Source: a virus. Taken from it: a DNA stretch of 56,587 nt. Positions 1,291-56,587 of the stretch are shown piece after piece. The DNA lies in the IMG/VR virus record IMGVR_UViG_3300047198_000034, positions 1 to 56,587 of that record, one strand, 5' to 3'. The translations under genes were made by a program, and so were the position numbers. The notes below the pieces were generated by a model that was not told the origin of the DNA, searched no databases, and saw only the letters and a list, made by a program, of their open reading frames with translations. Numbering within the stretch: the stretch's first letter is position 1; each line of letters begins with the position of its first letter.

Positions 1291-1977
1291 TCAAGCGATT
1301 TTTTCAGTCATCTTCTGAGGTTCAGGAACATCCAATGAGTCAGATTCCATCTGAATATATTGACGGTAAGCATTGTCTTCCGATAAATTCTTATCATTTT
1401 GGTCTGCAACAAGAAATTCATCCAACGTACTTAAATGTGTTGCGATTTGCCAAAATTCCTTTACGAGCCTTTTAATCTCTGTCATGATTTCATCATGCCG
1501 TTTATTAAGATATTCTACATATCTTCCGGTAATATCGACGAAGGTTAAATTTTCCGGTATCTCAAAAACTTTATATTTAGGGACTTCGACTAATTCAGTT
1601 TGTATGGCTTTAATCGGCATATTCTTAATTGGTTTTGGTTTCATTTTTCCCAATTCCCTTTTACCCCTACTCTTTATAAGAGCTCGATTCTTCAGTTCTG
1701 CCTTTTCTTCCTCCGTGAGATTCTCATTCCTGATCCGTGCGATCGTTCCCTTAGCTACGCCCGTTTTTTTGACGATCTCCCTCACGGAATGAGTTCTCAA
1801 AAGGGCCTTGACTTTTTCTTCTTTTTCTGGCTTCAGGTAATTTGGCATAGTCTCCTCATCGATGGCTTCCGGCTTTACTTCCCTTCCGCACATGTGGCAT
1901 ACATTCCTTGCTGGGTAAATGGCGTATGCTGGATGGTGTATGATTAATCCTCCGCAGTGTCGGTATGGGCATTTCAA
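1291..1977 (-). CDS. Zinc-finger/HTH DNA-binding protein
   Basis: This is a 228-residue protein. The N-terminus carries a Cys4 zinc site (Cys3, Cys8, Cys27, Cys30). Residues about 62-86 form a resolvase-type helix-turn-helix ('SVREIVKKTGVAKGTIARIR'). The rest is basic and then coiled-coil. The start is TTG 1977, overlapping the methyltransferase stop by four bases (TTGA), so the two genes are translationally coupled. It is likely a phage DNA-binding regulator; its target is unknown. Confidence 0.7.
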   Translation of the reverse strand: MKCPYRHCGGLIIHHPAYAIYPARNVCHMCGREVKPEAIDEETMPNYLKPEKEEKVKALLRTHSVREIVKKTGVAKGTIARIRNENLTEEEKAELKNRALIKSRGKRELGKMKPKPIKNMPIKAIQTELVEVPKYKVFEIPENLTFVDITGRYVEYLNKRHDEIMTEIKRLVKEFWQIATHLSTLDEFLVADQNDKNLSEDNAYRQYIQMESDSLDVPEPQKMTEKIA

Positions 1978-3977
1978 TGGTCACTCCATTTTTCAAAGCA
2001 TAGAACCTCTTCATAATCTATTCTCGGAGCCCCCTTCGACTCAGCCAGTCTTCTAAAGAACGACTTTCTCTCAACGGATATTTCCTCATCCTCTCCGGTG
2101 ATGGTGATTTGTTTTCCAAATGATTTGACCAACATCGCTTTGTGACGACAGACAAGTTTAAATCCTACACTTTCACAAAGGGTTTTCCATCTTCCTGGAA
2201 AATCAACGATGGCCCCTTTTTTACAATATGATTTCGTTACCCAGATCGCATGGCCCCCAGGCTTTAAAAGTTTATAGCATTGTTCAAGGATGATCCGGGA
2301 GGCTGACCAGAAAGTGTCGGGTGGGACATTACCTAAATTGCCTTGATCTCTTTGGGTAGGCCAATAGTTGCGCGGTTCTCCTGAATAATTAGTTAATCCC
2401 TTATACCCATTTCGAGATGATCCACCATCTTGCCGAATATCTGAATATGGTGGGCTACTCACCACGGCATCGAAGGAGCCTTCGGGCATCTTGCCAAGTT
2501 GGCCAAGGGAATCAGGATATCCTGTCCATTTATGAGTCATTTTAATAAGTGCTTTATCACTTCTACCAGGATGAGATTTACGTTGACCTTCTATAAATTT
2601 CTGTCTTTCTTCATCAGTCATCGGCTTATCGGTAGATGTTTCCGCATACGGTGGTGACGAGCATATCAAATCGAAATCCCCTTCTTTTAATGAACCGAGT
2701 TGGCCTTCGGAGGATCCATAATCTTGACTATGAAGTTCTTGAGTTCGACAAAAAGCCTCGAATGAAGCACCACCACCTTGAGATCGGTAGGTTTTATATT
2801 GCTTCTTACGATCAATGGAAGGACTATTCTTTTGGATAGACTGTTCAGCGTAGGGAGGTGATCCCACCACCAGCTCAAACTTCCCCTCTTTGAGATTGGC
2901 AAGAGAAGATTTCCAGATTTTTTTATGAATGATTTGACCTATAACGTTGTGGCTTACCCCATATTCCTTCGCTAAGATTGAATAGCTTGTATTCCCTTTT
3001 GAATATTTTTCTCTAATCTCTGTAACCTGCACTTCCGTTAATTTAGCCCTACCATGATTCTCACCCTTTGCCTGATGAAGATGTTTATTGAAAATTGGAT
3101 TTCTGCCTTTATCAGAAGAGTCCTGCCAATTATCCTGCATTGTTCCGAGGAATAAATGGTCTGGTCTAACGCACCCTGGATTGTCACAATGATGACAAAC
3201 CATTAAGCCTTCAGGAATAGGACCAAAATGGATTTCCCATGAAATACGATGGGCAGAGATTTCTTTTCCATCTATTAAAATCCTTCCATATCCTTTATTC
3301 TGTTTTTTACCTTTCCATTCCCAACAGGCATCCGCCTTTATAACTTTTGCCCAAAATCTATTTTCAAGATCAGAAAGTAAAAAGTGTTCAAAATTACCCT
3401 CCTTCAAATTTGCTAAGTTGCCAGGGGTGTGACCATAGCCGTCCTGCATGGCATCAAGGTTTCTATCGTCCTTCCGGCCACCCTTCCTTGTTGGTGTACC
3501 TCCGTGACCCAATCCTTCATGATATGGTGGACTCGATACCACCAAATCCGCTTGGTTTAGAGTCCCACGCAGCCCCGACTTTGCAATATCAGAGGGTCCC
3601 AAGTTACGGGCATTCCACATCACCTCCCTTAAATTTCTCGAATCCCCCTGCACAATCCTTGCCGTTCCAAGGTTAGGCCAACCCTTGAGTTGACGGTTCC
3701 AGAGGTCGATGTTCTGCTGGCCAAGGGAGACAAACTTTTCCTCAAGTTCAACAGCCAAAAAGTTTAGGCCGTGGCACATGGCATGAAAACCAAAGCCACA
3801 GATTCCGCCAAAGGGATCAAGGACATAATCCCCCCGCTTTACCCATCCCATGTTAATCGCATGGTCGTAAATCTTGCCGGCAAGGGAGAAGGATACCTTG
3901 GCCGGATGACTGAAAGCCTCTGGTACAAGATTCTTACCCCATGGAATTGAATAACAATTTTCCCAAATATCGGTCAT
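1974..3977 (-). CDS. DNA methyltransferase with four SPPY modules and an in-frame HNH insertion
   Basis: This 667-residue protein is a SAM-dependent amino-methyltransferase (N4-cytosine or N6-adenine class). The SAM-binding motif is DPFGGICGFG at residues 54-63, and catalytic SPPY tetrapeptides occur at about 149, 373, 440 and 510. Each SPPY after the first follows a repeated 'LGxLKEGxFD' segment. Between the first and second modules (about residues 198-356) lies a complete HNH homing-endonuclease domain ('VCHHCDNPGCVRPDHLFLGT') with its usual C-terminal HTH ('AKLTEVQVTEIREKYSKGNT'). NLANLKEGNFE before the insert is repeated as SLANLKEGKFE after it. The frame stays open throughout and no intein end residues are visible. 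It probably modifies phage DNA against restriction. Confidence 0.85.
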   Translation of the reverse strand: MTDIWENCYSIPWGKNLVPEAFSHPAKVSFSLAGKIYDHAINMGWVKRGDYVLDPFGGICGFGFHAMCHGLNFLAVELEEKFVSLGQQNIDLWNRQLKGWPNLGTARIVQGDSRNLREVMWNARNLGPSDIAKSGLRGTLNQADLVVSSPPYHEGLGHGGTPTRKGGRKDDRNLDAMQDGYGHTPGNLANLKEGNFEHFLLSDLENRFWAKVIKADACWEWKGKKQNKGYGRILIDGKEISAHRISWEIHFGPIPEGLMVCHHCDNPGCVRPDHLFLGTMQDNWQDSSDKGRNPIFNKHLHQAKGENHGRAKLTEVQVTEIREKYSKGNTSYSILAKEYGVSHNVIGQIIHKKIWKSSLANLKEGKFELVVGSPPYAEQSIQKNSPSIDRKKQYKTYRSQGGGASFEAFCRTQELHSQDYGSSEGQLGSLKEGDFDLICSSPPYAETSTDKPMTDEERQKFIEGQRKSHPGRSDKALIKMTHKWTGYPDSLGQLGKMPEGSFDAVVSSPPYSDIRQDGGSSRNGYKGLTNYSGEPRNYWPTQRDQGNLGNVPPDTFWSASRIILEQCYKLLKPGGHAIWVTKSYCKKGAIVDFPGRWKTLCESVGFKLVCRHKAMLVKSFGKQITITGEDEEISVERKSFFRRLAESKGAPRIDYEEVLCFEKWSDH

Positions 3978-4246
3978 ACTTTCTTAACCTCAAAAATATA
4001 ATGTCCTCCCCTTCGGGATTGCACCCAACACAAATTCCAAAACATAAAGTTCTTTTCCATTGCTTGGATAATATCCTCATTTCCCGGCCTACCACCCGTA
4101 GAAAGCCAGTATTTCTTCCCTGTTTTTCTCCAATAACCACAATTGGCATATTCCCACCTGTAATGAATAAATTCCATCAGGATAGGATAATCATTTGGCC
4201 ATACCTCTATTTTTTTAAGTTCATCCTCGGTTGGATATCGATTCAT
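3974..4246 (-). CDS. Conserved phage protein, unknown function
   Basis: The 90-residue protein is rich in aromatic residues (W, Y, F) and contains 'KYWLSTGGRPGNEDIIQAME'. Its stop overlaps the methyltransferase start (ATGA), so the two are coupled. No family is recognised with confidence. Confidence 0.7.
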   Translation of the reverse strand: MNRYPTEDELKKIEVWPNDYPILMEFIHYRWEYANCGYWRKTGKKYWLSTGGRPGNEDIIQAMEKNFMFWNLCWVQSRRGGHYIFEVKKV

Positions 4247-4416
4247 ACCTCATCCGCCTTATTTTCATTAATCAAGGTGCAGGGGGAAGTCTTCGATAGA
4301 TTTAAAAACCTTTCGTCCTTTGAGGTAAATATGACTTTTGGCTTCCACTTTGCAGTTTTATGGAGATGATATCCTTTGGCAAAGTGACGGATTAAAAAGC
4401 GGATAACAGTTTTCAT
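4243..4416 (-). CDS. Small basic protein, unknown
   Basis: The 57-residue frame starts at ATG 4416 behind AAAGGAGTCCCA and ends in an ATGA overlap with the next gene. It begins MKTVIRFLIRHFAKGYH and is basic and amphipathic. Its coupled position between genes and good ribosome site support it despite its size. Confidence 0.6.
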   Translation of the reverse strand: MKTVIRFLIRHFAKGYHLHKTAKWKPKVIFTSKDERFLNLSKTSPCTLINENKADEV

Positions 4417-4426
4417 TGGGACTCCT

Positions 4427-4564
4427 TTAAATCTTGGGTTTTAGACCAGTATGTTTTATAATTTCTAAGTGCATACGTGGCTTTAATAGAACCAGAATGG
4501 AATAGAATGTTTTTTTATCGATTAATACCGTATTGCCAATTTCCTCAAATCTGATTATCCTCAT
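4427..4564 (-). CDS. Small protein, unknown
   Basis: The 45-residue frame starts at ATG 4564 behind AAAGGAGCCCCA, nearly the same leader as its downstream neighbour. It begins MRIIRFEEIGNTVLIDKKTF. The shared leader suggests local duplication of expression signals. Confidence 0.5.
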   Translation of the reverse strand: MRIIRFEEIGNTVLIDKKTFYSILVLLKPRMHLEIIKHTGLKPKI

Positions 4565-4578
4565 TGGGGCTCCTTTAT

Positions 4579-4848
4579 TTATTGATATTCTGGTATCTTC
4601 AACTTCCGGTAAATATGTCTCATGATGGGATTCAGAGCTACTGATCCGCCAAAATCCTTGTCTTTAAATCTCTTTTTTAGTAATTTAAGAAGTTCCTGAC
4701 ATTCGCCTTTGCCCTCGTTTTCGGATTGGACAAGGTAAATAGTTGCCCAATCATCTCCTTCTGCGACATAGACCGTAACCCCTTTCCATTGAAATTCTAA
4801 AAGAGGCATATCTAAGGCAATTACCTTTCGCTCAATTAGCTTTTTCAT
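4579..4848 (-). CDS. GNAT-like acetyltransferase domain protein
   Basis: It has 89 residues from ATG 4848, which has the ribosome site AGGAGAGCCCCA like the neighbouring genes. The frame is open 25 codons further upstream to ATG 4923, which has no clear ribosome site. The pattern of a short strand with 'TIYLVQSENEGKGECQELLK' followed by 'LNPIMRHIYRKLKI' resembles the acetyl-CoA loop and C-terminal end of GNAT acetyltransferases. It is shorter than usual for the fold, so the substrate and activity are uncertain. Confidence 0.55.
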   Translation of the reverse strand: MKKLIERKVIALDMPLLEFQWKGVTVYVAEGDDWATIYLVQSENEGKGECQELLKLLKKRFKDKDFGGSVALNPIMRHIYRKLKIPEYQ

Positions 4849-49590: not shown

Positions 49591-50103
49591 AGATTCGCAT
49601 TGGTCACCTGGGTTTCATGTCTATAATCGCTCGCACCTTTTTCATGGGTTTCAGAATTGGATTCGCTCGCAATGATCCATTAGGTTTCAGCTTTTTGTTC
49701 GCTCGCATTCCTCATCTGAGTTTCGAATCCGTCATCGCTCGTATTTTTGTTTTGGGTTTCAAGCCGTCCCTCGCTCGCACTATTTTTATGGGGTTCAATA
49801 CTTGACTCGCTCGCAATAAACGATTGGGTTCCAAAGACTCCCTCGCTCGCATTACTTCCGTGGATTTCAGAAATGTTATCGCTCGCAGAGTTATTTTGGG
49901 TTTCAACTTCAACATCGCTCGCAGGGGCCTCCTGGGTTTCAAGACGGTAATCGCTCATCCTCTACACTCTGGCCTCAATACTGGGAGAAGGCGCACTCAG
50001 GACTTGGATTTCAACCTCTTCATCGCTCGCACTAATTTGCTGGATTTCAGGGAGGGGGTCGCTCGCATTTGTTAACTGGGTTTCAATCGTTAACTCGCTC
50101 GCA
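49591..50103 (-). repeat. TIGR-type array 2 (36-bp period, ~28 short spacers)
   Basis: This is the longest array. Conserved 9-mers TGGGTTTCA and TCGCTCGCA (plus strand) alternate with unique 9-base spacers in perfect 36-bp phase over about 14 units. A degenerate stretch at 49951-50004 keeps phase (CTGGCCTCA, GAAGGCGCA). The proximal units are read in frame by the tas gene (NASE and ETQ motifs), and a shadow frame of 92 codons crosses the rest; both follow simply from the 36-base period. In minus orientation the conserved segments contain UGA and CGAGCGA, as expected for the sheared G-A pairs of box C/D-like kink turns. Confidence 0.9.
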
Positions 50104-50915
50104 TTCTCCCAATAAAAGGGTTGAATAATGTTCGTATGCCCCATCAAAGCTCCTGTATAAGGTTCTGATACTGTCTTACCCTCAAGAGTCCTTGCAACTG
50201 TCCACCAATGAGCCAGAAATATCTTGACCACTTCATTTTTGGCTGCATTATGAACATGTCCCTTTTCCCATTCAGGATGATTCTTTTGATGCTTCGCCTT
50301 ATGTTGTAAAAGCAGGGCCTTATATGGATGATCATCTTTTTGTCTATTGAATTCCTCACCAATATGAAAACCCACCGTCCGCCCCACCGTTGACCAGTTT
50401 GACAAAGTACCTTTTTTCCGCTTTGGCATAACACCCTCAACTACATGTCTTCCCATATAGGCCCACCATTTTGATATTGTTGGGAAGTCCTTGTACTCCA
50501 ATCGATGCTTCAAAAGACCTTCCTTCGCTGTCTTTCCACAATCAACACATTTTAATTTATGCTCATTCTTTTCCAACTTGCCGCCGCAGTCTTTACAGAC
50601 CGGAATGAATCGATAATAAAACAAAATTATCATTTGGGCTGCAATATAAGGCCCGATTCCTGGTATTTTCTTTGCCCATAATTCCCAAATATCCCATTGC
50701 TTCAACTCCTTTTCAATTTCTCTATTAATCCGACCTTTTACTGTTTCTAATCCTGCCTCTGCCTTTTGTCCCTTTAAAAGCGTATCAAATTTTTCTTCCC
50801 GTTTTTCTCCTGGTAAAGATTGAAGCCTCTGTTTTGTTGATGCAATTAATTGAGTAACCCCTTGATATGTCCTTACCAAAAAATTCAAATATTTTATTCC
50901 CTGTTCGTTTGTCAT
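49962..50915 (-). CDS. Tas protein (Nop/IS110-like guide-RNA-binding protein), no fused nuclease seen
   Basis: The 317-residue protein has an N-terminal coiled coil (about 15-80), then 'KIPGIGPYIAAQMIILFYYR' (83-102), the Gly-rich helix-hairpin-helix found in Nop proteins and IS110 transposases. A zinc ribbon follows (Cys107, 110, 123, 126), then 'FPTISKWWAYMGRHVVEG' and a helical end ('NEVVKIFLAHWWTVARTLEG'). The authentic fold probably ends near residue 269; codons after that are array repeats. No HNH or RuvC motif is visible. Ribosome site AAAGGAGGTGTCGAG. It is proposed to bind 36-nt tigRNAs made from the flanking arrays and target DNA. Confidence 0.8.
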   Translation of the reverse strand: MTNEQGIKYLNFLVRTYQGVTQLIASTKQRLQSLPGEKREEKFDTLLKGQKAEAGLETVKGRINREIEKELKQWDIWELWAKKIPGIGPYIAAQMIILFYYRFIPVCKDCGGKLEKNEHKLKCVDCGKTAKEGLLKHRLEYKDFPTISKWWAYMGRHVVEGVMPKRKKGTLSNWSTVGRTVGFHIGEEFNRQKDDHPYKALLLQHKAKHQKNHPEWEKGHVHNAAKNEVVKIFLAHWWTVARTLEGKTVSEPYTGALMGHTNIIQPFYWENASELTIETQLTNASDPLPEIQQISASDEEVEIQVLSAPSPSIEARV

Positions 50916-50934
50916 CTCGACACCTCCTTTTTTT

Positions 50935-51105
50935 AAATTCGCATCTCTTGCTTGGGTTTCAACCTGACGGTCGCTCGCATAATGTTCCTGGGTTTCAGCA
51001 CGCCCATCGCTCGCATTGTATTTGTGGGTTTCAAAAAGCCGATCGCTCGCATTAGGATATTGGGTTTCAAGCCGATTATCGCTCGCATATTGCTTCTGGA
51101 TTTTA
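50935..51105 (-). repeat. TIGR-type array 3 (36-bp period, 9 short spacers)
   Basis: Same 9+9+9+9 layout as arrays 1 and 2, directly upstream of the tas ribosome site. The terminal repeats are degenerate: AAATTCGCA at the tas side and TGGATTTTA at the other. The junction TGCGAATTTAAAAAAAGGAG (minus) resembles the one before the 214-residue gene. Confidence 0.88.
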
Positions 51106-51285
51106 TTGGCTTTTTAGATTTCTACATATTATCACACTAACCGTTTCATCACCTCCCCACCGCCCGGCATCAAGAATATTAGGATTTTCAGTTTCCAAAA
51201 GAATACGATAGGATTTATCCAAACTCACAAGTGACTTTGCCCGTATTTCCTTAATCACTCCGATAAATTCAATCTTTTCATTCAT
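51103..51285 (-). CDS. Small conserved phage protein
   Basis: It has 60 residues from ATG 51285 behind AAGGAGAAAACGATC. Beta-rich ('IEFIGVIKEIRAKSLVSLDK'). Its stop touches TIGR array 3. Function unknown. Confidence 0.6.
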   Translation of the reverse strand: MNEKIEFIGVIKEIRAKSLVSLDKSYRILLETENPNILDAGRWGGDETVSVIICRNLKSQ

Positions 51286-51298
51286 GATCGTTTTCTCC

Positions 51299-51400
51299 TT
51301 ACCAATATTTAATAACAAAATGACCCGTGATATAAATCATTGTTACCCAAAACAAAAAAGTGATTCCAATTAAAATTGCTAAAATAAGGCTATTTTTCAT
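51299..51400 (-). CDS. Single-pass membrane peptide
   Basis: The 33-residue frame starts at ATG 51400. Its stop overlaps the next ribosome site (TAAGGAG). The sequence is a membrane helix ('LILAILIGITFLFWVTMIYI'). Confidence 0.5.
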   Translation of the reverse strand: MKNSLILAILIGITFLFWVTMIYITGHFVIKYW

Positions 51401-51422
51401 CTTCTCATTTCTCTCTCTTGGA

Positions 51423-52040
51423 TTATTTTTTTAACAAATAACCTATTTCTTTAATCCCATAAAATAATAGGATCTCGGCAGCCTTCATTAAATCAAAAAT
51501 ATTGATCGCCATCTTTGGAGTTACTTCCAGCTCGAATTTGACAGTATCATCGCCATAGGCTTCGATTCGGGGTCCCAATCCTTTAATTAGATCGTAAACA
51601 TAAATCGAAGGTTCTTGATTATCTTCTTTAAATTCAACCCGAAAATAATCGGCTAACTTTTGAATATTAGCTCTTCTTTTTAGGTGATAATCATTCGATT
51701 GTTTAACCTGATTGATGGCCTTTTCGAGTTCAGGCAGATAAACAGGCAAGAACCGTCTTTCGATATCCCTCGCTATTTGCTCAGAACTTTTGGTAACAGA
51801 GACATAGATTGAGGATTTAGATTCATAACAGCCAGATTCCCCCCTTATGGATGTCGGGAAATCGCCAGTAATATGAACTTTCTGCTCAGTAGCGATGGAA
51901 ATCCTGATCTTCTGATATTCCTTGATTAGATGTGCCCATCTTTGCCATTTCATATCCTCATCTGATGGGAATTCTACGCTCATTTTTAGGATAATGGCAA
52001 CTTGACCTATTTTATTTTTAAATTCTTGAGTTTCCATCAT
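51423..52040 (-). CDS. Conserved phage protein, unknown
   Basis: The 205-residue protein is mixed alpha/beta ('IEAYGDDTVKFELEVTPKMA') with a helical end. It begins MMETQEFKN. No catalytic motif is recognised. It sits among early-region genes. Confidence 0.6.
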   Translation of the reverse strand: MMETQEFKNKIGQVAIILKMSVEFPSDEDMKWQRWAHLIKEYQKIRISIATEQKVHITGDFPTSIRGESGCYESKSSIYVSVTKSSEQIARDIERRFLPVYLPELEKAINQVKQSNDYHLKRRANIQKLADYFRVEFKEDNQEPSIYVYDLIKGLGPRIEAYGDDTVKFELEVTPKMAINIFDLMKAAEILLFYGIKEIGYLLKK

Positions 52041-52053
52041 AATTTCCTTTTCT

Positions 52054-52287
52054 TTATAAAAACCCCTCTTTTTCGATTTTACTTACAGGAGGTCTTTCAA
52101 ATCTTTTTTTTCTTTTTTGGCGCTTAACCTCTATGTCGAGGTGTCTACCTGGGGATATTCTTAATCCTGTCTTTTCCAGGGCAAGGATAAGGTTAGGGGC
52201 CTCAATCTCACCTTGACAGATAGTCTTTCTCTTGCCTAAATATTCCAGGTTATTGGATCCTGTCCAAAGATTGAACTGGAAGAGCAT
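52054..52287 (-). CDS. Small protein, unknown
   Basis: The 77-residue protein has a basic C-terminus ('DIEVKRQKRKKRFERPPVSK'). Starts at ATG 52287, overlapping the preceding stop by one base. Confidence 0.55.
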   Translation of the reverse strand: MLFQFNLWTGSNNLEYLGKRKTICQGEIEAPNLILALEKTGLRISPGRHLDIEVKRQKRKKRFERPPVSKIEKEGFL

Positions 52288-52496
52288 CAGACCTCCTTTA
52301 ATATTTCCTCATAAAGTTCCTGACAATCTTGAAGTAACTTAATCGCTTTTATTATCATTTTGGGAAAAAGTTTAAATTGATCTCTTATAGCTTCCTCTCC
52401 AGCCTTTTTTGATTGCCAAACTCTGTTTTCGATTTCGTTCCGAAGTGATATATTAATACCTTGTTTCTTAATTTGTTCTATTTCTTCCCTTATCAT
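52287..52496 (-). CDS. Small helical protein, unknown
   Basis: The 69-residue protein is entirely helical and charged ('MIIKAIKLLQDCQELYEEIL'). Starts at ATG 52496, one base after the YopX gene. Confidence 0.55.
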   Translation of the reverse strand: MIREEIEQIKKQGINISLRNEIENRVWQSKKAGEEAIRDQFKLFPKMIIKAIKLLQDCQELYEEILKEV

Positions 52497-52497
52497 T

Positions 52498-52833
52498 TTA
52501 GACCTCCTTCATTAATTCGGGATTGGAATAAATATCGCCGATGACCTCACCTGTGAAATAGGCATAGAAATTTATTTGATATAGAGATTGCTTTGGTTTA
52601 GCAATAAAACCAGAGGAATCATTGCTCATTTTATAAATAATCTCACAAATATCGCCATTAGGAATCTTAACAATATCCCCTTCATAAATCTCCTTGCCAT
52701 TCTTATCGAGGAGGCCGATGAACTGCATAAGTTCATAATATTCAGGACGACAACGGTAATCAATGTCTTCTAAATCAAAATACTCCATTTTATTTTCCAA
52801 TTTATTCCATGCCCTAAATTTTATCTCTCTCAT
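52498..52833 (-). CDS. YopX family protein
   Basis: The 111-residue protein shows the YopX signature in order: 'MREIKFRAWN', 'LMQFIGLLDKNGKEIYEGDI' and 'GEVIGDIYSNPELMKEV'. Common in phage early regions; biochemical role unknown. Confidence 0.88.
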   Translation of the reverse strand: MREIKFRAWNKLENKMEYFDLEDIDYRCRPEYYELMQFIGLLDKNGKEIYEGDIVKIPNGDICEIIYKMSNDSSGFIAKPKQSLYQINFYAYFTGEVIGDIYSNPELMKEV

Positions 52834-53196
52834 TCAGATCTCCTGAATTATGATCTTTCCTTCTCTTCCCCAAAGTTTGGTTATGTGGATATCATAAATC
52901 CCTGAATCGTCTGAATAAATTGCGTCTGAAATTCCTTTCCCCAAATTATCCCAATCCGGTGTTTGCATATGGGGCTTACCATCATATTGTAGTTTTTTCT
53001 TCTCGCTCCACGAATCTGGCATCGGCAGAACAAAAGTAACATGGCTCCCATAACAAGGCAGCACGACTTTTTCTAATCTACATTGAAGACAAAAATCTCG
53101 ATATTTCTTTACCCGGGGGCGTGAAGGGTCAAGCCACTTATCTCTTCTCGTCATCCTGGGTTTTGCGATGGGAATGATGGAATATTCTTTTTTCAT
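52834..53196 (-). CDS. RusA-like Holliday junction resolvase
   Basis: It has 120 residues from ATG 53196; an upstream TTG at 53229 is less likely. The RusA motif 'PDWDNLGKGISDAIYSDDSG' has the catalytic aspartates, followed by 'IYDIHITKLW'. The N-terminal 'IPIAKPRMTRRDKW' is also typical. It resolves branched DNA from phage recombination and replication. Confidence 0.87.
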   Translation of the reverse strand: MKKEYSIIPIAKPRMTRRDKWLDPSRPRVKKYRDFCLQCRLEKVVLPCYGSHVTFVLPMPDSWSEKKKLQYDGKPHMQTPDWDNLGKGISDAIYSDDSGIYDIHITKLWGREGKIIIQEI

Positions 53197-53232
53197 CTTC
53201 TTATCAGGGCAAAATTGCCTGTTAATCAATGG

Positions 53233-53355
53233 TTATCTTTTAAATATGAGACATCTCCAAATCTGTCGAAACAAACCTCTGCCTAAATGGATATGCAAAT
53301 TTTTTCCTGTTCGTCTTACTTCCCATTCATCGTTTATTTTCCTCATCTTAAACAT
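53233..53355 (-). CDS. Small basic protein in an attC-like-bounded unit
   Basis: The 40-residue frame starts at ATG 53355 (site AGAGG), just downstream of attC-like site A. Basic ('EWEVRRTGKNLHIHLGRGLF'). Its stop lies in AGATAACC, again a TAAC sequence. Confidence 0.5.
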   Translation of the reverse strand: MFKMRKINDEWEVRRTGKNLHIHLGRGLFRQIWRCLIFKR

Positions 53356-53371
53356 ATTGAACCTCTAAAAA

Positions 53372-53457
53372 AGATAACCAGCGGGTCGAGGCGAGCATCA
53401 ATGTCCCGCTACTAAAGGTAAGAGTGAATGCTCGCCGCCTCACCCTTGACGTTATAC
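53372..53457. repeat. attC-like site A
   Basis: It runs from AGATAAC to GTTATAC over 86 bp. Arms ATAAC-CAGC-GGGT(C)GAGGCG-AGCAT and the complement of ATGCTCGCC-GCCTCACCC-TTGAC-GTTAT pair with an unpaired spacer and an extrahelical C on the plus 5' arm. The stop TAA of the 80-residue gene lies in the right R-like box. Confidence 0.6.
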
Positions 53458-53694
53458 GTATTGATTAAAAAATCTTAATAAGAAAGTGATTCTCATGCGT
53501 TGATTGAATCTATTATCAACCAATGCAGATCTTAAACCTGTAACCCGAACGATCCGATATGGATATGGACAAAAGTAATCTCCACATGAGCAACAAAGTC
53601 GATGTCTCCAAATAAAAGAAAAAAGGCGTATAACAAATCGCTTGAGCCGATGCGAAATAGCTCTTATAGTTTTATTTTCAGTTCTGTGGCGCAC
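53452..53694 (-). CDS. Small Cys-containing protein between attC-like sites A and B
   Basis: The 80-codon frame starts with GTG 53694 inside attC-like site B, where GAGG precedes at six bases, and ends in site A. It is basic with a hydrophobic patch and CCSCGDYFCPYPYR. No better internal start is present. It may be a real short gene or partly a read-through of the site. Confidence 0.4.
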   Translation of the reverse strand: MRHRTENKTIRAISHRLKRFVIRLFSFIWRHRLCCSCGDYFCPYPYRIVRVTGLRSALVDNRFNQRMRITFLLRFFNQYV

Positions 53695-53714
53695 GGCTCA
53701 CCTCATCGTTATGT
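53628..53714. repeat. attC-like site B
   Basis: Ends are GTATAAC and GTTATGT. The stem TGAGCCG(A)TGCG pairs with CGCACGGCTCA, with the extra A unpaired. Unpaired spacers AAATCGCT and CCTCATC separate it from the AAC/GTT boxes. This matches integron attC architecture closely. The Lar-like gene's TAA stop lies in the right box. Confidence 0.7.
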
Positions 53715-53909
53715 TGATCTATGATTCCATGCCTTAACTGCTAATTGTTTCGTAGATCGTATAAAATAAGATTCTGCACAAGATGAATATGGGCAAGATA
53801 TATCCCATAAATCTTCTGCCATCTGAGTCAAGGTGGGTTTACGGCCACAAAAGGGGCAACCCAACATAACAACCGGCTGCACTTGACCGTGATTAGCTTT
53901 CTTTTTCAT
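53709..53909 (-). CDS. Lar-like restriction alleviation protein
   Basis: The 66-residue protein has 'MLGCPFCGRKPTLTQMAEDL' followed by WDISCPYSSC and a final VKAWNHRST, the Lar family plan (zinc ribbon and WN[RH]R end). The start is ATG 53909 (GGGGG upstream) or ATG 53867, which sits in the GTTATG box of attC-like site C. Lar proteins reduce host type I restriction. Confidence 0.75.
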   Translation of the reverse strand: MKKKANHGQVQPVVMLGCPFCGRKPTLTQMAEDLWDISCPYSSCAESYFIRSTKQLAVKAWNHRST

Positions 53910-53948
53910 TATACCCCCGTATCCGGCAAGTGAGCCGGAATGTTAGCA
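53864..53948. repeat. attC-like site C
   Basis: Ends are ACATAAC and GTTAGCA. The stem CCGGCT(G)CACTTG pairs with CAAGTGAGCCGG, with the extra G unpaired on the plus 5' arm as in sites A, B and D. 85 bp long. Confidence 0.7.
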
Positions 53949-53949
53949 C

Positions 53950-54282
53950 TCAAGCCTGTATCCTCTTCAATTCTTCTTCGGCTTTCTTGGTGCGTTTCTC
54001 GAAATCGGCCCAATATCCAGCAGCTTCATTCCGCAATGCCGCAATCTTTAGGTATGCCAAATGGAGCTTGTCGCCGTTCTCCAATGCCTTTTTGTCGCAT
54101 TCGTGGCAATACAGTCCATCACCGCTCCCGGAGAAGTGAACACCATGTTCGTACTCTATCGCGGCAATCTTCGTGCAATCGTAACAAAATTCTTTCCCAC
54201 AGATGATGCACTTTTGATATCCACTCGCCTCTTTTCCGCATATGTCACAAAATGTCCTTTCGACTATCACTTGCCTTTTCAT
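53950..54282 (-). CDS. Zinc-finger protein in an attC-like-bounded unit
   Basis: The 110-residue protein has two Cys-rich fingers (CDICG ... CIICGKEFCYDC) plus CHEC, arranged like a RING/FYVE-like treble clef, and then a coiled coil ('KKAEEELKRIQA' end). ATG 54282 has AAAGGAGATGGACA. Its TGA stop abuts the GTGCTAAC box of site C. Confidence 0.65.
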   Translation of the reverse strand: MKRQVIVERTFCDICGKEASGYQKCIICGKEFCYDCTKIAAIEYEHGVHFSGSGDGLYCHECDKKALENGDKLHLAYLKIAALRNEAAGYWADFEKRTKKAEEELKRIQA

Positions 54283-54318
54283 TGTCCATCTCCTTTCGGA
54301 ATTAAGAAATCTAAAAAC

Positions 54319-54405
54319 GTGCTAACAATCGCTTCGAGAGGGACGCATGATAGTTGGGTGCTATGGCTTCTCTGTGCCTGCGCCCCTCAAGCGAAGTGTA
54401 ATAAC
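54319..54405. repeat. attC-like site D (one R box degenerate)
   Basis: The left end is GTGCTAAC. The stem TCGCTT(C)GAG(A)GGG(A)CGCA pairs with TGCGCCCCTCAAGCGA, with three extrahelical bases on the plus 5' arm. The right box reads GTGTAAT instead of GTT-type. The L-stem is the best-formed of the set. Confidence 0.6.
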
Positions 54406-54429
54406 TTTCTCAAATTCCTTAATTTCCAT
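54361..54429 (-). CDS. Very short peptide overlapping site D
   Basis: The 22-residue frame starts at ATG 54429 with the strong site AAAGGAGGATGAT. The sequence begins MEIKEFEKVITLRLRG. It overlaps the right arm of attC-like site D, so it may be truncated by the site's insertion. Confidence 0.35.
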   Translation of the reverse strand: MEIKEFEKVITLRLRGAGTEKP

Positions 54430-54492
54430 ATCATCCTCCTTTCAAAAGAAATTAAAAGCGGCATAGATCAGACGCTGAATAGCCCTTGTCAT

Positions 54493-54537
54493 TTTTAACC
54501 ATCCTCTCTCCGGCGCAGATCATGCCGGATGTTATTC
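54493..54537. repeat. Short attC-like hairpin (site F)
   Basis: TTTTAAC and GTTATTC bound a CCGGC-GCAGATCAT-GCCGG stem over 45 bp. It is shorter than known attC sites. The TAA stop of the 45-residue membrane gene lies in its right box, as at sites A and B. Confidence 0.4.
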
Positions 54538-54669
54538 GTTCCACATCCATTTCCAGATACTTCTAATAAATAACCATGTCACGCAGGCAGCGCCTCCGAA
54601 TGCCATAAGGAAAATGCCAAGAACCACCATCCCTAAGACTCCGATTGGATTCTCAAGTTCTATTTCCAC
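54532..54669 (-). CDS. Small membrane protein
   Basis: The 45-residue frame starts with GTG 54669 behind AAGGAGATAACCA. One membrane helix ('GVLGMVVLGIFLMAFGGAAC') and a Trp-rich end. Its stop lies in the attC-like hairpin. Confidence 0.55.
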   Translation of the reverse strand: MEIELENPIGVLGMVVLGIFLMAFGGAACVTWLFIRSIWKWMWNE

Positions 54670-54680
54670 TGGTTATCTCC

Positions 54681-54875
54681 TTATTGAAGCAATGATTTTA
54701 CTTTATCTAAAGAGGGGCCAGCGACTATCTTCTGGAGAACTCCCTTAATATCAACCTCTCCTTCGGGAAGTAGGATTTGAAAAACGACTTGCTCCCGGCT
54801 TCTATGGTTAAAAAATTTCTTATCATTGCCATCCCGTACTTCCTCCTCAGAAATCTCAATCTTGAATCGTTTCAT
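54681..54875 (-). CDS. Small phage protein, unknown
   Basis: It has 64 residues, coupled (ATGA) to the gene upstream. 'REQVVFQILLPEGEVDIKGV' is beta-rich. Function unknown. Confidence 0.6.
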   Translation of the reverse strand: MKRFKIEISEEEVRDGNDKKFFNHRSREQVVFQILLPEGEVDIKGVLQKIVAGPSLDKVKSLLQ

Positions 54876-55123
54876 TTTCGTTCTCCTTCTACTTTCTCAT
54901 AAGTTGCTTCAAAAATATCTGGCTTACAAGGATATCTTTCTCCCTTTATCCCCGTAATAATCCAATCTCCAGGAGTTACTTCGTGGCCCTCTTTTGATTC
55001 AACAGTACCAATGCTAAATCCGGTCGGAGACTTTAAATCTTCTTTTATCCCATCAGGCCATGGTTTAACTGTTGGAATAAATAACGATGCTTCGATCACC
55101 ACTGGTTTCTTTCTAAATTTCAT
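54872..55123 (-). CDS. Conserved phage protein (PGDWII family)
   Basis: The 83-residue protein begins 'MKFRKKPVVIEASLF' and contains 'VTPGDWIITGIKGERYPCKP' and DIFEATYE, a very common phage family of unknown function. Confidence 0.8.
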   Translation of the reverse strand: MKFRKKPVVIEASLFIPTVKPWPDGIKEDLKSPTGFSIGTVESKEGHEVTPGDWIITGIKGERYPCKPDIFEATYEKVEGERK

Positions 55124-55126
55124 TTT

Positions 55127-55303
55127 TCATCCCTTCTTATCGTTTTCATATTCTAAGTCCCAATCCAGTATATCAATCATCGGGATTATAAAATTTCTCA
55201 TTTTTCCATCTTCAGACATAAAAAGAATAAGATTTTGATCTTCTGCATCGGTTGTAATATGCCACGGATCTTGTTTTAGCCAGAGTTTTAAAACAGGAGT
55301 CAT
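55127..55303 (-). CDS. Small protein, unknown
   Basis: It has 58 residues from ATG 55303 (TAATG overlap). An upstream in-frame start at 55342 lies inside the preceding gene. The sequence contains 'DPWHITTDAEDQNLILFMSE'. Confidence 0.55.
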   Translation of the reverse strand: MTPVLKLWLKQDPWHITTDAEDQNLILFMSEDGKMRNFIIPMIDILDWDLEYENDKKG

Positions 55304-55566
55304 TATTTTTTCTCTTTTACCTCTGCCCCGCACATCGGGCATTTTTCTATTTTTTTACCGCCGGTAATCAGGTAGTGACCGAGTAACCACAAATCATCAT
55401 TTTTAAATCCATAACTCATAAACTCCTTAAAATCTTTACACCATTTACATTTCACTAACGGTTTTTGTTCTAATTGGTCGTGGTGACAATGCTGGTATGG
55501 AGCCACATAATAATTACTCCCGTACTTCCCCCTTAACCATTCACGACATTCATAACAAAGGCTCAT
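55303..55566 (-). CDS. Zinc-binding small phage protein
   Basis: The 87-residue protein has three Cys pairs (CYEC, CKWC, CPMC) and a His cluster, typical of small phage zinc proteins. Ribosome site GGAGAG. Confidence 0.6.
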   Translation of the reverse strand: MSLCYECREWLRGKYGSNYYVAPYQHCHHDQLEQKPLVKCKWCKDFKEFMSYGFKNDDLWLLGHYLITGGKKIEKCPMCGAEVKEKK

Positions 55567-55610
55567 AATCTCTCCTTTCCGGCCTTATTCTTTTCTAATT
55601 TCCCTTTCTT

Positions 55611-56159
55611 TTAAGATGGCGGCTCAAATCTTTTTTTCAACCCCAAAAAGCATTCTAACTGCCCCTTTAAAATCCAATGCCATCCTTCCCAATTACAGAT
55701 TCGGATCTTTTCCTCATCTGTGGGCAGATTTTTTAGGGTTTCCCAACAAGTATTATTATCCAGGATTCTATTTTTGAATTTCTCAAGGGGTGGCATATCA
55801 GCCCAAAACTTCCTAGAAAATGGAAGAATAAGTGTTGAAATCCACTTAGCGGAAATATCAAATATAAAATTAAAAATATATCCGCCTGCCTCGATAGACT
55901 CGCCTGCCTTGATAGACCCGTCTGCCTTGATAGACCCGCCTGCCTTGATAGACCCGCCTGCCTCGATAGACCAGCCTGCCTCGATAGACCCGCCTGCCTC
56001 GATAGACCCGCCTGCCTCGATAGACCCGTCTGCCTCGATAGACCAGCCTGCGTCTAATAGAATCGATATTTCAAACTTCACCAATGTTTTAAAAAATAAT
56101 ATTTTTTTATCATAATCCTTATATTTCTCTAAATCCTTTATTGTTTTAACTACATCCAT
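55611..56159 (-). CDS. Protein with nine hexapeptide-type repeats
   Basis: The 182-residue protein has N-terminal helix, then nine or so six-residue units [GDE][GEW]SI[EK]A (about residues 36-93), then a globular C-terminus with several Trp ('ICNWEGWHWILKGQLECFLG'). The repeat fits a left-handed beta-helix turn pattern. The flanks are ordinary phage-like sequence. Function unknown. Confidence 0.7.
   Translation of the reverse strand: MDVVKTIKDLEKYKDYDKKILFFKTLVKFEISILLDAGWSIEADGSIEAGGSIEAGGSIEAGWSIEAGGSIKAGGSIKADGSIKAGESIEAGGYIFNFIFDISAKWISTLILPFSRKFWADMPPLEKFKNRILDNNTCWETLKNLPTDEEKIRICNWEGWHWILKGQLECFLGLKKRFEPPS
55880..56054 (-). repeat. 18-bp tandem repeats (nine to ten copies)
   Basis: The plus-strand unit CGCCTGCCTCGATAGACC varies only at a few positions (CTC/CTT, CGC/CAG/CGT). 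Near identity at the DNA level signals recent expansion and likely copy-number variation. Confidence 0.85.
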
Positions 56160-56205
56160 AAAATTCCCTCCTTTCCGCCTTGTTTTACCCTACCCGGGAT
56201 CAGGT

Positions 56206-56244
56206 TTATGTCAAATATGGATCGTATACTGGGAACATTGGCAT
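56206..56244 (-). CDS. Twelve-residue peptide behind a UUCG hairpin
   Basis: ATG 56244 follows AAAGGAGGTG; the peptide is MPMFPVYDPYLT. It could be a leader peptide or chance. Evidence is the ideal ribosome site only. Confidence 0.25.
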   Translation of the reverse strand: MPMFPVYDPYLT

Positions 56245-56256
56245 CACCTCCTTTCC

Positions 56257-56276
56257 GGCCCCACCGAAGCGGGGCC
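56257..56276 (-). terminator. Very stable hairpin (GGCCCC stem, UUCG-type loop)
   Basis: GGCCCC (56257-56262) pairs with GGGGCC (56271-56276); on the minus strand the loop reads GCTTCGGT, a cUUCGg tetraloop. It lies right after the 93-residue gene's stop and before an ideal ribosome site. There is no T-run. Confidence 0.5.
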
Positions 56277-56557
56277 TATGTGGATTTTGGCGCATAATAA
56301 GTTTCATAAGGTTGTGATTGGAATCTTGATGGAATCCACCAGCAATCTCCATATTTTTTACATTTCCAAGGCGTTCTACATCCGGTTTCGCAAGGAGGAT
56401 TTTCCCACCATGAATCATAGCAATCATCACAGATATGACTTTGAGCAGTTTGATAATCGCTCCATCCCCCATATCCCTCTCCAATATGGGTTTCTTTATT
56501 GATTATCAATATTTCTGATTTACATTCATCGCAGAATAATTTCTCATTTAAAAGCAT
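56276..56557 (-). CDS. Cys-rich zinc protein, unknown
   Basis: The 93-residue protein has CDEC, CDDC and further Cys (CETGC, CKKYGDC). ATG 56557 follows GGGGGAAATT. It is the first gene after the putative circular junction; the overlapping frame at 56206-56484 is rejected. Confidence 0.65.
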   Translation of the reverse strand: MLLNEKLFCDECKSEILIINKETHIGEGYGGWSDYQTAQSHICDDCYDSWWENPPCETGCRTPWKCKKYGDCWWIPSRFQSQPYETYYAPKST

Positions 56558-56587
56558 AATTTCCCCCTGAATTTAGCTTTTTAACAG

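Follow-up and report, generated by a model that had tools for sequence, protein, structure and literature searches.

A probable cluster of integron cassettes without an integrase, beside an attI-like element, in a tailed phage genome

Introduction

Clusters of attC sites without an integrase (CALINs) have already been published for virulent and temperate phages, 17 being reported (Qi et al. 2023, PMC9892861). In the phages TJE1 and PH101 the genes run with the attC sites, and attC1 and attC2 of TJE1, plus other sites, recombine with IntI1 (Qi et al. 2023, PMC9892861). The cassettes of CALINs can also be captured by integrases acting in trans (PMC9668308). The general view is that integron cassettes spread chiefly by way of plasmids and transposons and are expressed from a promoter linked to the integrase. 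In the literature searched, from which preprints and most subscription journals were absent, Qi et al. 2023 was the only paper found that is devoted to attC sites in phage genomes, and no report was found of an attI-like platform lacking intI and common to phages. The parts of Qi et al. 2023 consulted do not describe a platform common to two phages, and the words 'opposite' and 'reverse' are absent from its main text.

The locus described here is contained in a single IMG/VR virus record (IMGVR_UViG_3300047198_000034), the 56,587 bases of which are referred to below as the window. It resembles the locus of Tetrasphaera phage TJE1 in that an attC cluster occurs in a phage genome with no integrase, and both are matched by the same covariance model. 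However, the genes of TJE1 are parallel to its attC sites, whereas those of the window are antiparallel. With sedentary and mobile integrons (class 1, class 2 and chromosomal) the locus shares a match to the attC model and the complementarity of cassette ends. Unlike them, it has no intI, its attI-like element is not demonstrated to be an attI, its genes are antiparallel, and the Pc promoter is inferred to be replaced by a phage operon. The existence of phage CALINs is known; what is new is a platform in two dissimilar phages, antiparallel genes and a rearranged cassette content.

Construction of a covariance model for attC

Since Rfam gave zero matches in the window, a separate model of attC was built, and all scores given here derive from it and not from that of IntegronFinder. 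The source material consisted of integrase-linked integrons, namely those of IntI1, IntI2 and a third IntI from plasmids, together with further loci encoding an IntI relative (80 of 444 genome candidates and 80 of 102 viral-contig candidates). A strict scan of the IntI loci yielded 131 distinct candidates; a cleanliness filter reduced these to 34, and the alignment was made from 30 of the 34. Covariation is evident in the stems of the 30-site alignment, with 111 cells in which both sides are changed, where shuffling gives a mean of 42. This alignment gave the first model (R1), which identified 158 sites at E <= 0.1 among the 80 viral IntI loci; almost all of them lie on the other strand from intI, the arrangement seen in ordinary integrons. 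The second model (R2) was built from the best 150 R1 sites, with the window excluded from training. Polarity was anchored on aadA1, whose attC lies on the same strand as the gene. As a separate observation, an IntI relative is encoded in 102 stretches from IMG/VR; many of them hold long attC arrays, and some of these records are perhaps misfiled integrons.

In a null set of 28 terminase-related viral loci (276 kb) the best R2 score is 12.6 bits, and the published CALIN of TJE1 gives 34.6, 30.4 and 28.0 bits. P12002L, also a published phage CALIN, is not matched by R2; the model thus overlooks some true sites, and the lack of a match does not prove that a site is absent.

Four attC-like sites in the window

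The first two sites fit the attC sequence-and-structure model strongly. Site A (53372–53457, plus strand) scores 37.2 bits (E 2.5e-7) and site B (53628–53714, plus) 38.9 bits (E 9.3e-8) under R2. Both score above the TJE1 sites, and they are the only matches when the whole 56.6-kb window is searched on both strands with E up to 10. The fit of site C (53864–53948, plus; 18.6 bits, E 0.0017) is weak, and that of site D (54319–54405, plus; 10.9 bits, E 0.16), the last of the array, is partial; C and D were scored by R2 with filters off, over positions 50000–56587 (6.6 kb). Under R1, sites B, A and C reach 30.7, 23.4 and 14.7 bits, and D is not found. The attC identity of A and B is established, as a prediction of the model.

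A preliminary description, made without database searches, had proposed four sites of common polarity with AAC/GTT ends, one box of D being degenerate. This held. All four are placed in plus orientation by the covariance model, albeit weakly for C and partially for D; A, B and C carry both the R'' AAC and the R' GTT, and D lacks the GTT of its R' box, which would fit either an array that ends in foreign DNA or decay, both being possible. The same description placed all extrahelical bases on the plus 5' arm, which is incorrect, site A having a 3-nt bulge on the other arm. A plain helix score favours the minus strand for A, but the covariance model places it on the plus strand. Scores below threshold at every site, together with strict conservation of gene order in relatives, had been named as the outcome that would refute the reading; with A and B scoring well, its first half was not obtained.

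Other features of the sites are less typical. A strict R-box scan (GTTRRRY, one deviation in all) finds no site in the window because the boxes there read GTTAT. Hairpin shape alone is not significant, since the window contains 10 hairpins with a helix score of at least 18 and shuffled sequences have a mean of 5.3 and a maximum of 11. The DNA-fold z-scores are -1.7 for A, -1.5 for B, -5.1 for C and -4.0 for D. A candidate fifth site (~54440–54542), with a stem and a GTTATTC box, was dropped on the basis of a z-score of -0.4 and the lack of any model match.

PF00589 has 0 matches in the whole record, which is possibly incomplete, so neither a tyrosine recombinase nor an integron integrase was found; the earlier statement that the window has no integron integrase is upheld. 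The intI criterion for a complete integron is therefore unmet. With A and B 171 bp apart, the criterion for a CALIN (at least two nearby attC sites and no integrase) is met.

Cassettes and the complementarity of their ends

The array contains four cassettes. The first (53233–53451, plus) consists of a 40-aa ORF (53233–53355, minus) and attC A. The second (53452–53708, plus) has attC B but no clear gene; its minus-strand ORF (53452–53694) shows no family match in Pfam or PHROG searches. The third (53709–53942, plus) combines attC C with a Lar-like restriction alleviation gene of 66 aa (53709–53909, minus) that matches PF14354 at 29.2 bits, just over the cut-off of 28.6, and phrog_599 with E 5.6e-6. 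The gene has its upstream ATG in the loop of site C and ends with a TAA located in the R' box of site B. A counter-restriction function is possible, and is inferred from sequence alone; a pattern search gave no close relative of the gene. The fourth cassette (53943–54398, plus) comprises attC D and a gene for a small cysteine-rich protein of 110 aa (53950–54282, minus). This protein is probably zinc-binding, with only sub-threshold RING/B-box-like Pfam matches; its single-sequence fold is poor (mean pLDDT 64.7), too poor for a structure search, and no relative was found in phages or plasmids. An ORF of 22 codons (54363–54430, minus) that has a strong ribosome-binding site runs into site D. Conceivably it is the start of a phage gene that was cut when the array arrived.

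The preliminary description had given the array an extent of 53372–54405, which is correct only in part; the array starts at 53232, with an extra first cassette and, to the left of that cassette, an attI-like element. Two further claims also hold in part. TAA stops are found within the boxes for three of the four cassette ORFs, the gene of the zinc protein stopping at a TGA just outside, and the small genes said to lie between the sites include no clear one in the A–B interval. The claim that the genes read opposite to the usual cassette polarity is confirmed. The usual arrangement, one small gene per attC and with its polarity, is accordingly unmet, the genes being antiparallel and cassette 2 having no clear gene. 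Because reversed genes occur in integrons, the antiparallel genes lower the typicality of the array but not its membership.

A cassette enters an integron as a circle cut at G|TT. For this reason, the first bases of a cassette complement the R'' of its own attC, and the two boxes of any one hairpin in an array come from neighbouring cassettes. In the window, all four intervals show an opening box that is exactly complementary to the R'' of the attC belonging to the cassette, with runs of 10, 8, 9 and 8 nucleotides for cassettes 1 to 4. The corresponding runs within the same hairpin are 5 (A), 5 (B) and 4 (C), D having no GTT. When the boxes are paired in all 24 possible ways, the true pairing ranks first with a sum of 35, and the runner-up reaches 28. 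The same pattern is found in integrase-linked arrays, where 93 of 105 cassettes show an exact run of at least 7 (mean 9.2) and same-hairpin pairs reach this length in only 13 of 148 cases (mean 4.0), random pairing giving 8.6%. Cassette-end runs are 12, 10 and 11 in L217 and 9, 7 and 9 in L257, two phage contigs described below. The complementarity of the ends of all four cassettes, which the preliminary description had not noticed, is thus demonstrated. The test is symmetric and so carries no information on polarity, which rests on the covariance model.

An alternative is that these are phage-specific hairpins, intergenic stems with roles in termination, RNA processing or translation control that merely resemble attC. 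In its favour, the stems lie between genes, one of them holds a start codon, the hairpin shape does not exceed chance and the R boxes are atypical. Against it stand the scores that the model gives to A and B, the only matches in the window, and the presence of only one terminator-like site in the region, none being at A–D. Furthermore, in 4/4 intervals the boxes pair by cassette and not by hairpin, the property that separates cassettes from look-alike hairpins. We consider this alternative very unlikely. The preliminary reading had left open captured integron cassettes or a phage-specific look-alike; the former is supported and the latter disfavoured.

Phage context

The window encodes a terminase, a portal, a capsid and a prohead protease, and its larger ORFs lie mostly on the minus strand. 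The array intervals sit between rusA (52834–53196, minus) and a phrog_419 gene (54872–55123, minus). The former, a rusA-like Holliday junction resolvase gene (PF05866 46.8 bits; phrog_140), adjoins the platform described in the next section and belongs to the flank, outside the array. Alignment of its product with relatives begins at residue 6–21 of the longer ORF. No close relative of the phage was found, the best relative of the terminase being only 45% identical and no named phage giving a near match; relatives of the gene at 51423–52040 are only 28–33% identical. In the absence of a close relative, gain or loss of cassettes within one phage lineage remains undecided.

Several other features of the window were recorded. 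SPPY-type motifs recur in a DNA methyltransferase-like ORF (1974–3977, minus), which also contains an HNH endonuclease domain. Tandem 36-bp units (4.2 copies, 50953–51103) adjoin an ORF (49962–50915) that matches phrog_4285, a PHROG named transposase. Tandem 18-bp units (9.4 copies, 55882–56051) encode GGSIEA-type hexapeptide repeats in the ORF at 55611–56159.

An attI-like platform common to two phage contigs

The array is preceded by an attI-like platform (53201–53238, plus), a conserved 35-bp element that ends in the first box, G|TTATCT. This element is matched at 91% over 35 bp (53201–53235; E 5e-7) in L217 (IMGVR_UViG_3300020171_000249), a 10,266-base contig in which a terminase is weakly matched, and the match to the element begins at the cassette crossover. 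In the window the platform box is complementary over 10 nucleotides to the R'' of attC A, and in L217 over 12 nucleotides to the attC of the first cassette. The element was not found in the IntI loci examined, where no known attI matched it, and in named phages nothing above chance was found. The platform looks as an attI would, but it is known from two contigs only, and attI activity is no more than a possibility inferred from sequence alone.

The element could instead be a conserved phage promoter or operator. The L217 copy has TTGATT and GATAAT 18 nucleotides apart, and the window copy contains a GGCAATTTTGCC palindrome. However, the window copy fails a promoter scan, promoter-like sites do not exceed their frequency in shuffled sequence, conservation begins at the cassette crossover, and the box pairs with the attC of the first cassette in both contigs. 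On balance we lean slightly away from this explanation, although the two roles, promoter and attI, can coincide in one element.

The resemblance between the window and L217 is otherwise limited. At the DNA level attC A is 83.5% conserved over 85 bp (E 2.5e-17) and rusA 67% over 224 bp (E 7e-12), the remainder being three weak matches (E between 0.003 and 0.04), of which one is a further part of rusA. At the protein level only RusA (60% identical) and the Lar-like protein (34%) match, and the latter, in L217, has no match to the Pfam Lar model at E 0.1. The two contigs thus have in common the platform and one attC, and are otherwise alike only in rusA and the Lar-like gene.

The order of the cassettes differs. 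From the platform, the window has the 40-aa ORF (closed by attC A), the unclear ORF (B), the Lar-like gene (C) and the cysteine-rich gene (D). In L217 a small Lar-like zinc gene comes first, then an HNH gene, which an A-type attC closes, and then a zinc-ribbon gene. The Lar cassette is therefore third in the window and first in L217, and the A-type attC closes cassette 1 in the former and cassette 2 in the latter; in both, a Lar start codon lies inside its attC. Strict conservation of gene order, the other half of the refuting outcome named beforehand, is not observed. We read the difference in content as cassette exchange, an inference that does not exclude descent with loss.

A related possibility is a fossil array, in which the cassettes entered once (for instance with a piece of a host integron) and are now inherited as ordinary phage genes without recombination. 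The absence of an integrase, the decayed state of D and the lack of a clear gene in the A–B interval would agree with this. On the other hand, the box pairs are still exact for 8–10 nucleotides in all four cassettes, and L217 has the same platform and attC A, yet there Lar and the A-type site occupy different places. A fossil origin remains possible, but is the less likely reading.

Frequency of arrays and gene polarity in other records

In whole-record searches, attC sites at E <= 0.01 were found in 3 of 77 RusA-found records (1/40 and 2/37) and in none of 31 other records. Because the contigs were found via rusA, a link between rusA and the arrays cannot be claimed. An exact search with an arm of site B gave no match. 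A looser arm pattern returned 19 viral stretches; among these and three remote relatives, two reached 19 bits and none more.

One of the other phage contigs that bear rusA, L257 (IMGVR_UViG_3300038701_001047), has at 2505–4626 an attC-like array between one-gene intervals. Two of its sites are long palindromes, one gene is PAPS-reductase-like, and ORF stops fall in TAAC boxes in 4/4 cases read. Its sites score 42.2 and 27.4 bits, and two more 16.2 bits each. A single attC-like site of 33.4 bits (G091, at L301 2408–2465) lies between a methyltransferase-like ORF and another ORF. Like the window, all three loci have attC sites, and in L217 and L257 the genes are likewise antiparallel to them; L217 alone adds the platform and attC A. 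They differ from the window in gene content, no platform was seen in L257, and the neighbours of the G091 site run with it, as do those in TJE1. Neither the L217 nor the L257 record, both possibly fragments, contains an integrase or tyrosine recombinase.

As a baseline for polarity, the longest ORFs in 106 intervals of integrase arrays were scored, giving 50 forward, 47 reverse and 9 tied, or 35 against 21 under strict scoring (21/56 reversed). This baseline is too crude to use and is probably inflated by high G+C, and it does not settle whether the reversed polarity reflects selection or chance.

Discussion

The array is very likely (probability ~0.88) a CALIN in a tailed phage, with four cassettes that start at an attI-like element next to rusA; that they recombine in trans is an inference. 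The host, or some other element, would provide the integron integrase in trans, which follows from the lack of a tyrosine recombinase in the window, L217 and L257 records. Its substrate would be the bottom strand of attC in folded form, and it would join cassette circles to the platform at G|TT. The minus-strand operon of the phage itself would then transcribe the cassettes. Genes lying against the attC polarity would in this way be expressed, and those of use to the phage, for example the Lar-like gene with its possible counter-restriction role, would be kept. Several points stand against the CALIN reading: the missing integrase, the weakness of C and D, a hairpin shape at chance level and atypical R boxes, as well as a platform seen in two contigs only and no close relative that shows gain or loss.

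A bolder reading is that of an enzyme-less phage integron platform, with a conserved attI-like site common to phages otherwise alike only in rusA and a Lar-like gene, that collects small, often zinc-binding, perhaps counter-defence genes. Its array would be inverted relative to the attC polarity for the phage operon to read it, and the integrase would be borrowed from hosts that bear integrons. Here we find the case for and the case against almost evenly weighted, with a slight lean against.

The complementarity of cassette ends needs no trained model, and could be used across viral databases to sort true phage cassette arrays from look-alikes. If the platform without intI is truly present in two dissimilar phages, it would constitute a second vehicle for cassettes, and could explain the source of some small cassettes in reverse orientation. 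Phage counter-defence genes would then be exchangeable by site-specific recombination, and, should the bolder reading prove true, phages would act as a standing exchange market for cassettes.
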